Below, one piece after another: positions 17,839-24,450 of a DNA stretch of 39,309 nt (position 1 is its first letter; each line of letters starts with the position of its first letter). The DNA is from Desulfurellales bacterium (lineage in GTDB: Bacteria > Campylobacterota_A > Desulfurellia > Desulfurellales > Hippeaceae), in NCBI GenBank assembly GCA_027045065.1, contig JALUBE010000026.1, positions 1-39,309 of the forward strand, read 5' to 3'. Made by a program: the position numbers and the translations under genes. Below the pieces are notes generated by a model that made no database searches, was not told where the DNA came from, and saw nothing but the letters and a program-made list of their open reading frames with translations.

Positions 17839-17865
17839 TTGATTTTTTTTAAAAAACGATATATT
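17839..17865 (+). promoter_or_regulatory. Candidate promoter of pruA
   Basis: TTGATT (17839-17844) and TATATT (17860-17865) are 15 bases apart in AT-rich sequence containing a TTTTTTAAAAAA tract. The short spacer makes this tentative. Confidence 0.35.
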
Positions 17866-17905
17866 GTTCATAATAATGAAAAGATTTTTTAAAAGGAGGT
17901 GTACC

Positions 17906-19540
17906 ATGCGCAATACCATAGCAAAAGTACCGTATCCGGTAAATGAGCCTGTTTACTCTTATGCTCCAGGAACAGAGGAGAGGGAGAAGCTTAAAGAAGC
18001 TATTAAGGAAATCAAATCTAAACAAATAGAAATCCCTCTAATTATTGGCGGCGAGGAAATAAAGACAGGTAAAACTCAAGAGATAATAGAGCCGCACAAT
18101 ACAAAATCAGTACTTGGCGTATTCCACAAACCAACAGAAAAAGAAGTAAAAATGGCTATTGAGGCGGCTATTGCGGCTCAGAAAAAATGGAGAGAATACG
18201 ATTGGATAGATAGAGCTGCTATCTTTATGAAAGCAGCAGAACTTTTGAGCAAAAAGTATAGATTTTTAATCAATGCAGCCACTATGCTCACAATGAGTAA
18301 AAATGTTTTTCAGGCAGAAATTGACTCGGCGTGTGAATTAATTGACTTCTTAAGATTTAACGTCTATTACATGCAAAAAATTTATGAAGATCAGCCACTT
18401 CATTCTCCTTACGGCACATGGAACATCATGCAATACAGACCATTAGAAGGCTTCATCTTTGCCGTACCACCGTTTAACTTCGTTTCTATCTCTGGAAATC
18501 TACCAACGGCTCCTGCAATAATGGGTAACGTTGTAGTATGGAAACCAGCTGCAAACAGTGTTTATGCACCATATATCTTCATGAAAGTATTGCAAGAAGC
18601 AGGTTTACCCGATGGAGTTATTAATTTTATACCCGGGGACGGTCCAGATGTAGGTCCATATGTATTTTCATCTGAACACTTTGCAGGCTTACACTTCACA
18701 GGTAGCGTAAAAACATTCCAGTGGATGTGGAAAACTATAGGAGACAATATAACTAAGTACAAAACATATCCAAGAATCGTAGGTGAAACAGGCGGAAAGG
18801 ACTATATATTTGCCCACAAATCGGCTAATAGAAAAAAACTCATTACCGCAATTGTAAGGGGAGCCTACGAATATCAAGGTCAAAAATGTTCCGCCGTCTC
18901 AAGATTATACCTGCCAAAGAGCATGTGGAACGAGATAAAAGACGAGCTCTTTGCAGAGATCGATAAAATCAAAATGGGTTCTCCTGAAGATTTCACAAAC
19001 TTCATGAACGCCGTAATAGATAGAAAAGCTTTCGACAAAATAGTGAAATACATAGAGTATGCAAAAACCGCATCTGATGCAGAAATAGTTAAAGGCGGTG
19101 GATACGACGACTCCGTAGGTTATTTTATTGAGCCAACGATAATCTTAACGGAGAATCCACACTTTAAGACGATGGAAGAGGAGATCTTCGGTCCTGTGGT
19201 AACCGTATATCCTTACGATGATGATAAATACGTTGAAACACTACATCTATGCGACGAGACAAGTCCATACGGTTTGACAGGCTCTATCTTTAGCGAGGAC
19301 AGGGATGCAACAAGGGTAGCCATCGACATACTCGAGAACAGTGCAGGAAACTTCTATATAAACGATAAACCAACAGGTGCCGTAGTGGGTCAGCAACCAT
19401 TCGGAGGTTCAAGGGCAAGCGGAACAAACGATAAGGCTGGAAGCCATTTGAACCTCTTAAGGTGGGTAACACCAAGGGCAATAAAAGAAAACTTCTTGTC
19501 TCCAGAAAACTTTGAATATCCATTTATGAAAGAGGAGTAA
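17906..19540 (+). CDS. pruA: 1-pyrroline-5-carboxylate dehydrogenase (ALDH4-type)
   Basis: This NAD-dependent aldehyde dehydrogenase oxidises glutamate semialdehyde, in equilibrium with pyrroline-5-carboxylate, to glutamate in proline breakdown. The protein is 544 aa from the ATG at 17906, which follows AAGGAGGTG; this matches the length of ALDH4/PruA proteins. The track's TTG at 17864 adds an implausible MFIIMKRFFKRRCT. Key residues are the general base E294 (GETGGKD) and the nucleophile C328 (GQKCSAVSR). The NAD-binding stretch FTGSVKTF, PFNFVSISGNLPTAPA and the C-terminal PFGGSRASGTNDKAG are also as in PruA. The proline dehydrogenase gene follows after four bases. Confidence 0.95.
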   Translation: MRNTIAKVPYPVNEPVYSYAPGTEEREKLKEAIKEIKSKQIEIPLIIGGEEIKTGKTQEIIEPHNTKSVLGVFHKPTEKEVKMAIEAAIAAQKKWREYDWIDRAAIFMKAAELLSKKYRFLINAATMLTMSKNVFQAEIDSACELIDFLRFNVYYMQKIYEDQPLHSPYGTWNIMQYRPLEGFIFAVPPFNFVSISGNLPTAPAIMGNVVVWKPAANSVYAPYIFMKVLQEAGLPDGVINFIPGDGPDVGPYVFSSEHFAGLHFTGSVKTFQWMWKTIGDNITKYKTYPRIVGETGGKDYIFAHKSANRKKLITAIVRGAYEYQGQKCSAVSRLYLPKSMWNEIKDELFAEIDKIKMGSPEDFTNFMNAVIDRKAFDKIVKYIEYAKTASDAEIVKGGGYDDSVGYFIEPTIILTENPHFKTMEEEIFGPVVTVYPYDDDKYVETLHLCDETSPYGLTGSIFSEDRDATRVAIDILENSAGNFYINDKPTGAVVGQQPFGGSRASGTNDKAGSHLNLLRWVTPRAIKENFLSPENFEYPFMKEE

Positions 19541-19544
19541 AAAT

Positions 19545-20447
19545 ATGTCTATCTTCAACAAAAGTGTAAGCATATTTATAGATAAAGTACCACCGGGCGC
19601 CATTGCGCCCTTTGCTAAACGATACATTGCAGGCCCTGAATTAACCGATGCCATTGAGCTTACAAAGAAGCTAAATTCTCAGGGTGCCATGACCACAATA
19701 GATGTACTTGGCGAATTTGTAAACACAAAAGAAGAAACAATTTACTACAGAAACTTAGCTATTAAGGTGCTCGAAGCAATTGACAAAAACAAATTAGACG
19801 CCAACTTATCTTTAAAACTCACACAAATGGGCTTAAAGCTATCAAAAGCTCTATGTTTAGATAACATAGAAAAGATCTTTGAGAAAGCAAAAGAGCTGGG
19901 TATTTTTGTAAGGATAGATATGGAGGACTCAACCTGCACAGATGACACATTAGAAATTTATAGAAACTATAGAGACAAATACAACATAGGAACCGTATTA
20001 CAAGCTTACATGAGGAGAACAATAGATGACATAAACAAACTATCAGACGGAAGACTCAACTTTAGGTTGTGCAAAGGTATATACGACGAGCCGAGGGAAA
20101 TTGCTTACAAAGACAAGGAAATCATAAGGAGCAATTATATATGGTGTTTAGAGGAACTTCTAATTAAAAAAGCTTACGTGGGAATCGCGACACACGATGA
20201 ATACTTGGTTTTCCACGCTGAAAGATTACTAAAAAAATATGGATACAAACGGGACGAATACGAGTTCCAAATGTTGCTTGGCGTTGATGAACAGCTCCGC
20301 TCAATAATCATAAACAGGGGCCATAGATTAAGGGTTTACGTTCCTTTTGGCAAGGATTGGTTGCCTTACTCAATCAGAAGACTCAAAGAGAATCCCAACA
20401 TTATGAAATCGGCCATAGAGGGATACATAAAGAAATATCAAAGATAG
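19545..20447 (+). CDS. Proline dehydrogenase
   Basis: This is a monofunctional FAD proline dehydrogenase of 300 aa with a TIM barrel like the PutA core. It oxidises proline to pyrroline-5-carboxylate and passes electrons to the quinone pool at the membrane. Family marks are GAMTTIDVLGEFV, VRIDMEDSTCTDDTLEIY, VLQAYMRRTIDDI, LCKGIYDEPREIAY, IATHDEYLVFHAERLL, EFQMLLGVDEQLR and the C-terminal VYVPFGKDWLPYSIRRL. The ATG at 19545 follows pruA by four bases, with GAGGAG at the end of pruA as binding site. The two genes therefore form a complete proline-to-glutamate operon with separate enzymes instead of a fused PutA. Confidence 0.94.
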   Translation: MSIFNKSVSIFIDKVPPGAIAPFAKRYIAGPELTDAIELTKKLNSQGAMTTIDVLGEFVNTKEETIYYRNLAIKVLEAIDKNKLDANLSLKLTQMGLKLSKALCLDNIEKIFEKAKELGIFVRIDMEDSTCTDDTLEIYRNYRDKYNIGTVLQAYMRRTIDDINKLSDGRLNFRLCKGIYDEPREIAYKDKEIIRSNYIWCLEELLIKKAYVGIATHDEYLVFHAERLLKKYGYKRDEYEFQMLLGVDEQLRSIIINRGHRLRVYVPFGKDWLPYSIRRLKENPNIMKSAIEGYIKKYQR

Positions 20448-20465
20448 CCCTGCCTCACGGCGGGG
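20448..20465. terminator. Possible shared hairpin between convergent proline dehydrogenase and GNAT genes
   Basis: CCCTGCC-TCAC-GGCGGGG forms a 7-bp stem with one G-T wobble, directly after the proline dehydrogenase stop and across the stop of the GNAT gene. The following sequence (TTATCCCCTTTT on +) is only weakly T-rich, so termination may be inefficient. Confidence 0.35.
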
Positions 20466-21567
20466 TTATCCCCTTTTCATAGATCCTGTAAGTCTTGTAG
20501 TGTTCAGCACCCATCTTCAGAATGGGCTTATTGATGGCATCGTTGTCTTCCAACGTCCAAGAAAGCTCACCGCCCTTTCCGCCACGTTTTTCAACCACTT
20601 CGAAGCTTTTTATATAAAGTAAAAGATCAACACCCATCTTCCTACATTCTGGCAAAACACCGAGCGTAATCAACCTATAGTTGTCTATCTTTTTTAACCT
20701 GTACAGGGCTTTTAATGCATTAAAAGGTGTTATCTTTCCCCCCAAACCCTTAAGTGCTTGATTGAAATCCGGCACTATTGCTGAAAAACCACAGGGTTTG
20801 CCTTCTCTATAAGCAAAGATCACAAGTTCTTCAGGCACCATTGTTTTAAAATCCTCAACGCCGTATCTAAACTCCTCATATGTCGGTGGCACAAAACCCC
20901 AGTTGTTCTTCCACGCCTCACAGTACAAGTAGTGGATCGTTTTTACATCCTCTTCGAAGCTCTTACGAGAAAAATGCCTCAGCTCAATGCCAAATTTTTT
21001 TTGAACATAACTTGCAAGCTTTAGCAACTTCTCTTTGGGTTTGTTGGCAGTTGTCAGGTAGAAGGCGTATAAATCCTTCACCTTTTTAAAACCATATCCC
21101 TCGATCAAATCTATATAATAAGCCCTGTTGTATGGCATCATAAAAACAGGCTCTTGAAAAAAGCCCTTAACAAGCAATCCACTGATATCGTTCATGGATG
21201 GGCTAATAGGCCCCCTAATCACATTGAGGCCGTTTTCGTACAAAAACCCTTCAGCCTTTTCAAAAAGCAAAGAAGCCACATCTTTATCATTAATGCACTC
21301 AAAGAAACCAAAGAAACCGACCTTGTCATTGTGGAATTCATTGTGGCGCTTATTGACAATTACCGCAATCCTTCCCACAGGTTTTTCGTCTTCGTATGCA
21401 ATGAACAAAGCCCTTTTAGCATACCTATAAAACGGGTTGTGCTTATCATCTATCATTTTCTTTTCTTCTTCAATTAAAGGCTGTACGTATAATCGGTCAT
21501 CTTTGTAAAAAAGAGGAGCAATCCTAACGAAAAGGTCAAGATCTTCTGTTTGCTCAACACGTATCAT
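20455..21567 (-). CDS. Double-GNAT N-acyltransferase, candidate bacterial ceramide synthase (YghO-like)
   Basis: This 370-aa protein has two GNAT-like halves, about residues 1-175 and 190-365. The first contains [19 protein letters not shown] and [20 protein letters not shown]. The second has the acyl-CoA-binding loop type [16 protein letters not shown] and the end [15 protein letters not shown]. This pattern is that of a group typified by E. coli YghO. The ceramide synthase described in Caulobacter is also a GNAT-fold N-acyltransferase. The start overlaps the stop of the SPT-like gene as ATGA, so the two are translationally coupled. The idea that it N-acylates the product of that enzyme is inference from fold and context; another lipid or amine acylation is possible. 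Confidence 0.7.
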
Positions 21568-22745
21568 ATTACGCCTAATTCTTTTCCTACTTTGTAGAGC
21601 TTATCCAAAGCAAAGTCTATCTGATCAAACGTATGTGTAGCCATTAAGCTCAATCTAATTAAAGCCTTATTCGGCGGGACAGCAGGAGACACAACGGGGT
21701 TTACAAACAAACCCTCGTCAAAGAGCATACGCCTCATCCTCAAAACCTTTTCGTCATCGCCTATAACCAAAGGAATAATGGGTGTGCAGCTTGTTCCAGT
21801 GTCATAGCCCATCTCTTGAACACCCTTTCTCATCCTGTCAGTGTTTGCCCACAGTTTATCTATTAATTCAGGTTCATTCTCCATAATATCAAGGGCAGCC
21901 AAAACCGCTGCTGTGGAGGCTGGGGTTATACTTGCTGAAAAAATGAGACTTCTCGCAAAGTGTCTCAAGTAATCGATAACCTCCTTATCCGCCGCTAAAA
22001 ATCCTCCCAAAGAGGCAAATGATTTACTGAACGTTCCCATTATTATGTCAACGTCATCTTCCAAACCAAAGTGGTTTGCTGTACCCCTGCCGTTTTTACC
22101 CAAAACGCCAAAGGAATGGGCGTCATCCACCATTAAACGCGCATTGTATTTCTTTTTCAGTTTGACCATTTCGGGTAGATTTGCTATGTCTCCATCCATG
22201 CTGTAAACACCATCGACCACGATGAGCTTTCCCGCGTCAAACTCTAAGGATGAAAGAACCTTCTCCAATGATTCCATGTCATTATGTAAAAACCTCTTAA
22301 CCGTTCCGTAGGACAGTCTCGAACCATCAACGATGCTTGCATGATCAGACTTATCCAAGATCACATATTCGCCCTTACCCACAAGACCCGCTATAGCACC
22401 TAAATTGGCTTGGAATCCTGTGCTAAACAGAATTGCGTCCTCTTTGTTGACAAAAGCCGCAAGTCTTTCCTCTAACTCCTCATGTATATCCAACGTACCG
22501 TTTAAGAACCTCGAACCTGCGCATGCCGTGCCGTATTTATCAATTGCCTTTTTTGCAGCCTCTTTTACCTTTGGATGAACGGTCAAACCAAGGTAGCTGT
22601 TTGAACCAAGCATCAAAACCCTTCTGCCGTTAATTATGACCTCTGTGTCCTGTTCTGAAGATATGGGCTGAAAGTAAGGATATAATCCTGCCTTTCTTGT
22701 TTCTTCTGCCGTCTTAAAGTTATAACATTTATCAAAAAGATCCAT
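21564..22745 (-). CDS. Alpha-oxoamine synthase, probable serine palmitoyltransferase
   Basis: This 393-aa PLP enzyme belongs to the alpha-oxoamine synthase family (SPT, KBL, BioF, HemA), which condenses an amino acid with an acyl thioester. The PLP lysine is K241 in [14 protein letters not shown]135 ([10 protein letters not shown]) and D207/H210 (MVDDAH) are the cofactor residues. The N-terminal [19 protein letters not shown], the [18 protein letters not shown] stretch and [13 protein letters not shown] are close to bacterial serine palmitoyltransferases such as that of Bacteroides, as I recall that sequence. They are less like KBL or BioF. SPT makes 3-ketosphinganine, the first sphingolipid step. 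It has its own promoter and is coupled to the GNAT gene. KBL or BioF-like activity remains possible. Confidence 0.8.
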
Positions 22746-22774
22746 ACTGCCTTCTCCCCTTTAAATGATTTTTA

Positions 22775-22803
22775 CTTCTATAAAAAAAATGCCTTCTTGT
22801 CAA
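22775..22803 (-). promoter_or_regulatory. Candidate sigma70 promoter of the SPT-GNAT operon
   Basis: On the minus strand a perfect TTGACA (22803-22798) is 17 bases from TAGAAG (22780-22775), with TATAGA two bases closer as an alternative -10. The leader would be about 22 bases, with a GGGAGAAGG site before the ATG. Confidence 0.5.
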
Positions 22804-22806
22804 GAA
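22794..22806. promoter_or_regulatory. 13-bp dyad over the -35 box of the SPT-GNAT promoter
   Basis: TTCTTGTCAAGAA is a perfect palindrome around its central base and contains the whole -35 hexamer. Such placement is typical of a repressor operator. As an RNA hairpin it would be weak (loop of 1-3 bases), though eight T residues follow a few bases later on the minus strand. Confidence 0.4.
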
Positions 22807-22815
22807 CGACAGGAG

Positions 22816-24450
22816 TTAACTTGAAGTTAGTTCCACCTGTCTTGAGTAAATTGCCCTATGCACTTTAGCGTCTTCAGACTCATTCAAGCCAAAATACTCA
22901 AACCTCACGGTGTAAATGCCGCCGTCATCGATAACATCAGATACTACAGCTGGTATTGATATAACCTCATTCTTGGGTTTTGCCTTAATCAAGACCGTAT
23001 CTCCAATTGAGAAAACGGCATCCTTGGATTTTGCAAGTAAGGACTTCGTGCCAAATATACTTGTCCTCATCTTCACAACCTTGTTAACATTCTGAGCCGA
23101 AGTCTTTTGCATGAACTTCAAAGGCACAACCAAAATATCAAACTCCCAATAGACCTCTAAGGGTTTATCCTCTATATCGCTCTTTTCAACTATTGATAAA
23201 TTAACAACATCCTCAGACGCGCTCAGCACCTCTGCCACAATATCCATAATCTTCGACACAACTGGCACCTGCATTCTAACCCTGTCTCTAAAGCCCAGCT
23301 TCTTACCCTCTGGTGTAGCCAAACTTATGCCCAAATTACTGCCCGCAGAGTACTCAACAACACCTTTGACCAAATTTAAATCTCCATTCTTGTAAAAAAT
23401 CAAGATAACTGGTTTTCCACTCATTATTCCCCTAAAATCGGTTTTTCTCTCATATAGCGTCTCAACTATCGGTATAGCTATATCTACAATCTCCTCATCA
23501 AATGCCTCGCCCTTTAATCTCTTCAGGTAATGAACAATCTGATCGACCTTCAAGCCCGGCCTATCGGGTCTGTCCGTATGCAAACCGTCAACTAACTCGC
23601 AAATTGCCAAAACCTTTGATTCAACGGGGATTTCATCGCCCTTCAAACCGTAATATCCCTTACCATCAATCCTCTCGTGGTGATAGAGAGCTATATTGAC
23701 GATATCTTCTAAAAAAGGGTTGTGCAAAAATATATGTTTTAAGTTCAAGGGATGACTTTTTACAAGTTCAAGCTCTTCATCTGTAAGCTTATCCCTTTTA
23801 TCCAATATATCGTTGGGTATCCAAATTTCGCCTACATCGTGAATCAAGGCTGCAAAGTAAATGTTTTTGATCTTTTGCTCATCAAACCCCATACTCTCGG
23901 ATATCTTAACAGCCAAATCTGCAACCCTGAACGAATGGTAGAACGTTCTTGGCCTAATGGTTTTAATCAAGTTCAAGGCGTTTAAACAAATAAATCTCCT
24001 TGAAACCTCATTTAAAATGGATAGATGCACCTTGGGTAATTCATGGCTCATCTTGAACATTAATCTATCGGCTAATTCCTTTGTCTCATCCGTAATAAAG
24101 GGTAAATCTGTGAGTAATTCTAAAAAGCCAATCAATTGGCTGCCCACATAGATCTTTTTTACAAACAAGGAACTTTCCGTTCCAAAGCCCTCATACAAAA
24201 ACGGATAACTACTCTCAATCCCACCTGTTATCTCGAATTCATCCTTTTTCTTAAGTAAATCCCCGAAATGCTCCGTAACAAAGAGCTTTAAGCCCTCAAA
24301 CTCCTTTAAAAAACCCTTCTCTGAGTCATAGCAGAAATATAGGAAGTGCTGATTGTCGTTCAAAATAAAAAACAAGCTCACCCTACACTTAACGTTAAAA
24401 TCCTTCAGTTCGTCTAATAAAATTTTTCTTATCCCTTCTAAATTTTCCAT
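22816..24450 (-). CDS. GAF-like/HD-GYP phosphodiesterase with PilZ-like C terminus
   Basis: This 544-aa protein is predicted to degrade c-di-GMP. Residues 1-140 look like a divergent GAF-type sensor. The HD-GYP domain (about 160-345) has the HD pair in ALIHDVGEIWIP (H204, D205) and HHERIDGKGYYGLKGDEIP (257-275), where the usual GYP is GYY. The C-terminal 355-540 resembles a YcgR/PilZ module (NLGISLATPEGKKLGFRDRVRMQV, then VRFEYFGLNESEDAKVHRAIYSRQVEL), but I see no clean RxxxR and DxSxxG pair, so c-di-GMP binding by this part is doubtful. No membrane segment is seen. The ATG lacks a ribosome binding site and lies just after a predicted promoter, so the mRNA may be leaderless. Confidence 0.88.
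   Translation of the reverse strand: MENLEGIRKILLDELKDFNVKCRVSLFFILNDNQHFLYFCYDSEKGFLKEFEGLKLFVTEHFGDLLKKKDEFEITGGIESSYPFLYEGFGTESSLFVKKIYVGSQLIGFLELLTDLPFITDETKELADRLMFKMSHELPKVHLSILNEVSRRFICLNALNLIKTIRPRTFYHSFRVADLAVKISESMGFDEQKIKNIYFAALIHDVGEIWIPNDILDKRDKLTDEELELVKSHPLNLKHIFLHNPFLEDIVNIALYHHERIDGKGYYGLKGDEIPVESKVLAICELVDGLHTDRPDRPGLKVDQIVHYLKRLKGEAFDEEIVDIAIPIVETLYERKTDFRGIMSGKPVILIFYKNGDLNLVKGVVEYSAGSNLGISLATPEGKKLGFRDRVRMQVPVVSKIMDIVAEVLSASEDVVNLSIVEKSDIEDKPLEVYWEFDILVVPLKFMQKTSAQNVNKVVKMRTSIFGTKSLLAKSKDAVFSIGDTVLIKAKPKNEVISIPAVVSDVIDDGGIYTVRFEYFGLNESEDAKVHRAIYSRQVELTSS

Follow-up and report, generated by a model that had tools for sequence, protein, structure and literature searches.

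The perfect palindrome over the -35 hexamer upstream of the paired SPT (serine palmitoyltransferase-like) and GNAT genes is, with a probability that we put at roughly 85%, a fortuitous symmetry within what would be a sigma-70-type promoter of the SPT-GNAT operon. The palindrome was correctly observed and is ordinary; the evidence speaks for a separate promoter of the lipid gene pair but does not support an operator. The window, which is the whole stretch of 39,309 nucleotides analysed, contains the following features relevant to this reading, listed in the direction of transcription of the SPT gene.

22816..24450, minus strand: HD-GYP-type protein, 544 aa (PF13487, E 2.9e-28)
22783..22813, minus strand: segment of the HD-GYP transcript that could fold into a weak hairpin (TGTC.TTCTT-GAC-AAGAAGGCA) ahead of T8, a possible leaky terminator judged by folding
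22794..22806, minus strand: 13-bp dyad TTCTTGACAAGAA around the -35 hexamer, read from the sequence; its symmetry is judged fortuitous and is not kept as a dyad in relatives
22798..22804, minus strand: extended -35 CTTGACA, invariant in 15/15 family genomes
22775..22782, minus strand: putative -10 region TATAGAAG, from conserved columns, read as TAGAAG (spacer 17) or TATAGA (spacer 15), position 6 lacking T both ways
22763..22771, minus strand: conserved box AAATCATTT at the expected transcription start or 5' leader, from the alignment of relatives
21564..22745, minus strand: SPT-like AOS-family enzyme (serine palmitoyltransferase), 393 aa, best solved match 3a2b (E 2.3e-154)
20455..21567, minus strand: GNAT-like acyltransferase, 370 aa, from a marginal PF00583 match (22.4 bits vs 20.7) and synteny

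The three minus-strand genes thus run in the order HD-GYP-type, SPT-like and GNAT-like, and the GNAT start overlaps the SPT stop. The SPT-like protein scores 633.7 bits against NF047600, for which the cut-off is 640. The GNAT-like protein matches neither a solved structure nor an NCBIfam model; it could be the pathway's N-acyltransferase. SPT and GNAT are adjacent in nearly all relatives examined, distant ones included. On the plus strand, two genes at 17864-20447 end just before the GNAT gene and, by their translations only, resemble an aldehyde (pyrroline-5-carboxylate) dehydrogenase and a proline dehydrogenase. A literature search returned no paper joining Hippea and sphingolipid.

The preliminary description had reported a perfect 13-bp dyad that encloses the entire -35 hexamer of the SPT-GNAT promoter, and both points were confirmed. 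The plus-strand sequence TTCTTGTCAAGAA occupies exactly 22794-22806 and, read in the direction of SPT, consists of 6-bp arms (TTCTTG/CAAGAA) around one central base (A), with TTGACA (22803-22798) inside it, upstream of the gene pair. The T-A and G-C pairs that flank the central A fall wholly within TTGACA, so two of the six come free. The 1.53-Mb assembly holds a single exact copy of the dyad, at the SPT promoter. Perfect dyads of the 6+1+6 form occur 13 times in the window, and a second one, TAACTTGAAGTTA at 22817-22829, lies 23 bp off over the HD-GYP stop codon.

The genome under study falls in Hippea, going by a relative of 99% identity that is filed as Hippea sp. The SPT upstream regions of 15 genomes of the family (Hippeaceae), with 8 genus sequences among the subsets, were aligned on TTGACA. 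CTTGACA is invariant in all of them, and the symmetry is perfect in only three (G000, G004 and G006, representing two lineages) and lost in the other 12. The same three genomes are the only ones with an intact C(-1):G(+7) pair, position +7 being G in these and another base, mostly A, in 12/15. Positions -2 and -3 vary to A or G in five genomes, and the opposite base is unmatched apart from one case in the divergent sequence G009, where a single pair has changed on both sides from T-A to A-T; this sole two-sided change compares with 0.4-0.5 expected by shuffling, and no compensated half-site change was found within the genus. Pairing across the dyad amounts to 70.2% vs 69.1% when shuffled, with 246 of 500 shuffles as high, and a recount of Watson-Crick pairs only was again no better than shuffles. 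Because G006 is not sister to G000/G004 on the SPT tree, and because G005/G002, the sister pair of G000/G004, have A at +7, the G that completes the palindrome would most simply have been gained twice.

Conservation in the 15 upstream regions instead begins with a sharp left edge at the C before TTGACA, and the conserved columns follow in the order C, TTGACA, A-rich stretch, T-rich spacer, TATAGAAG/TATAAAAA and the AAATCATTT box, with C(-1), A(+6), A(+8) and A(+9) invariant in the 8 genus sequences. Flanking half-sites that vary freely in relatives while only TTGACA is kept had been named in the preliminary description as the pattern that would speak against its reading, and the alignment comes close to this, though conservation also covers C(-1) and the A-rich stretch that follows the hexamer. 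Such conservation beyond the hexamer could also be explained by a flanking protein contact, which counts against the promoter-only reading that we favour.

The expected frequency of such a palindrome was estimated from 147 intergenic TTGACA hexamers in 1.74 Mb of the congener G003, which covers almost all of its genome. The base before these hexamers is C in 37% of cases vs a background of 19.6%, and the base after them (+6) is A in 54% vs 30%, so that CTTGACAA is the ordinary -35 context in G003 and is already half symmetric. For this reason, when left and right flanks are shuffled among the 147 sites, a mean of about 1.9 perfect dyads is expected over intergenic TTGACA per genome, and the single dyad in the genome under study therefore needs no special cause. 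The dyad occurs as often as chance predicts. With half of the symmetry already built into the -35 context of the genus, a short palindrome over TTGACA is no ground for inferring regulation.

These results bear directly on the proposal that the dyad is a repressor operator, at which a homodimeric regulator would bind TTCTTG-A-CAAGAA and block RNA polymerase at the -35. Perfect symmetry positioned over the -35, and its presence in two lineages, are what such a proposal would lead one to expect, but the 12 relatives that have lost the symmetry have kept the promoter, compensated changes are absent within the genus, and the frequency of the dyad matches the chance expectation. A search for other copies near lipid genes, across the genus and among five near-copies in the own genome, revealed none upstream of a lipid gene and hence no second operator there. 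With up to one mismatch allowed, the dyad turns up within the genus about as often as a reversed control pattern, and each of the five 1-mismatch sites inspected in the own genome falls within a long reading frame of another gene. A dyad-based regulon was rejected, as the copies are at chance level only. The operator interpretation was thus not borne out, and we consider it highly improbable.

The sequence around the dyad could alternatively act in the RNA of the preceding gene, where the 3' end of the HD-GYP mRNA would fold (TGTC...GACA or TGTC.TTCTT/AAGAAGGCA) and, in the genome under study, continue directly into T8, forming a weak intrinsic terminator overlapping the next promoter, an arrangement compatible with the favoured reading. 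Predicted folding is -5.1 to -6.5 kcal/mol in three HD-GYP-linked lineages vs 0 to -3.6 kcal/mol in loci without HD-GYP upstream; the hairpin energies in HD-GYP-linked genomes are -5.2, -6.5 and -5.5 kcal/mol, and in the own genome an alternative stem of about -5 kcal/mol, with a bulge, leads directly into T8. However, the T tract is also found where HD-GYP is absent and so counts as part of the promoter spacer; the T run of G005 and G002 is well separated from the stem. Furthermore, the stem is weak, compensating changes could not be seen by eye, a terminator scan makes no call here, and the HD-GYP gene of G006, located elsewhere, ends without comparable hairpin-like sequence. The role of T8 as an HD-GYP terminator tail is weakened by the same T tract in genomes that have no HD-GYP upstream. 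A terminator at this position is, in our judgement, improbable.

The favoured reading, a promoter of the SPT-GNAT operon itself, is based on what the relatives retain. HD-GYP lies upstream of SPT only in G000, G004, G005 and G002, SPT-GNAT is kept across the family, and the whole block from CTTGACA to the leader persists in genomes without HD-GYP upstream. As the block is kept where HD-GYP is not upstream, the alignment supports a promoter of SPT-GNAT's own, independent of HD-GYP, in Hippea and its family. The earlier suggestion that the lipid operon is regulated separately from the HD-GYP gene consequently stands as far as separate transcription is concerned and falls with regard to the repressor operator. 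The intergenic sequence from HD-GYP to SPT reads, in the minus-strand sense, TTCTTGACAAGAAGGCATTTTTTTTATAGAAGTAAAAATCATTTAAAGGGGAGAAGGCAGT-ATG. The -10 element proposed previously, TAGAAG, corresponds to 22780-22775 at spacer 17, and the pattern across the family is TAnAA(A/G) at spacer 17 or TRTAnA at spacer 15, with position 6 never T. The missing final T of the -10 is the weak point of the promoter reading and the reason why a simple sigma-70 consensus scan did not call the promoter, and both count against this reading. A TAAAAT further downstream was rejected as the -10, for which the spacer would be 24 bp.

Based on these elements, RNA polymerase would read CTTGACA and the adjoining A-rich DNA as an extended -35, followed by the T-rich spacer and the TATAGAAG -10 region, and would probably do so without the involvement of a repressor. 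TTGACA followed by A already spells TTG-A-CAA; the C before and the A after the hexamer would reflect a general preference in the genus, and the G at +7 of this lineage would complete the palindrome by chance.

As a candidate regulatory site, the AAATCATTT box is preferable to the dyad. It lies 32-40 nt past the start of TTGACA, near where transcription would be expected to start; its letters 1-6 (AAATCA) do not vary among the 8 genus sequences, and most of the family has a recognisable version of the box. Treated as a dyad, the box has 78.7% of cells paired vs at most 46.8% when slid, and five further Watson-Crick pair types vs 2.6 expected, with a shuffle fraction of about 0.03 that ignores relatedness; within the genus alone the fraction is 0.09, again with relatedness ignored, and is not significant. 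The symmetry of the box is thus weakly supported by the alignment. The real regulatory site could be this box, an imperfect dyad (GTAAAATCATTTTAC in G007) bound by a putative regulator, which is compatible with the promoter reading and is suggested by the strong conservation past the -10, by the pairing and by the marginal excess of pair types. Yet most sequences show imperfect symmetry, and the needs of polymerase alone may explain why initiation or discriminator sequences are conserved. A search for the -35-to-box arrangement in nine genus genomes found the SPT promoter in 7/9, plus isolated matches in two; as the arrangement is otherwise specific to this promoter, there is no regulon to support a regulator of the box. 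In G003, the box is also found upstream of a gene read as hrcA from sequence, at a different spacing. We regard a regulated box as unlikely. Slightly less likely still is the specific proposal that, in Hippea and its relatives, a dedicated sphingolipid-synthesis regulator has its operator at the box instead of the dyad and acts on this single operon.

This analysis takes a false operator out of consideration, points to an independent SPT-GNAT promoter in Hippea and its family, and shifts attention to the more conserved neighbouring box.

Among known systems, the locus resembles bacterial sigma-70-dependent promoters with a CTTGACA-type -35: TTGACA is preceded by C and followed by A, an AT-rich -10 comes at 15-17 bp, and the distance from the promoter to the ATG downstream is about 58 bp. 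It differs from them in its -10 without the final T and in the unusually conserved box near the expected start. With the general class of promoter-overlapping operators of dimeric repressors the locus has in common a palindrome over a promoter hexamer, but here the symmetry is not conserved, and neither a second copy near related genes nor a regulator gene was found. With intrinsic (rho-independent) terminators it shares a weak stem followed by T8 in the own genome, whereas the stem is weak, bulged and not kept in relatives, and the T tract is common to promoters without the upstream gene.
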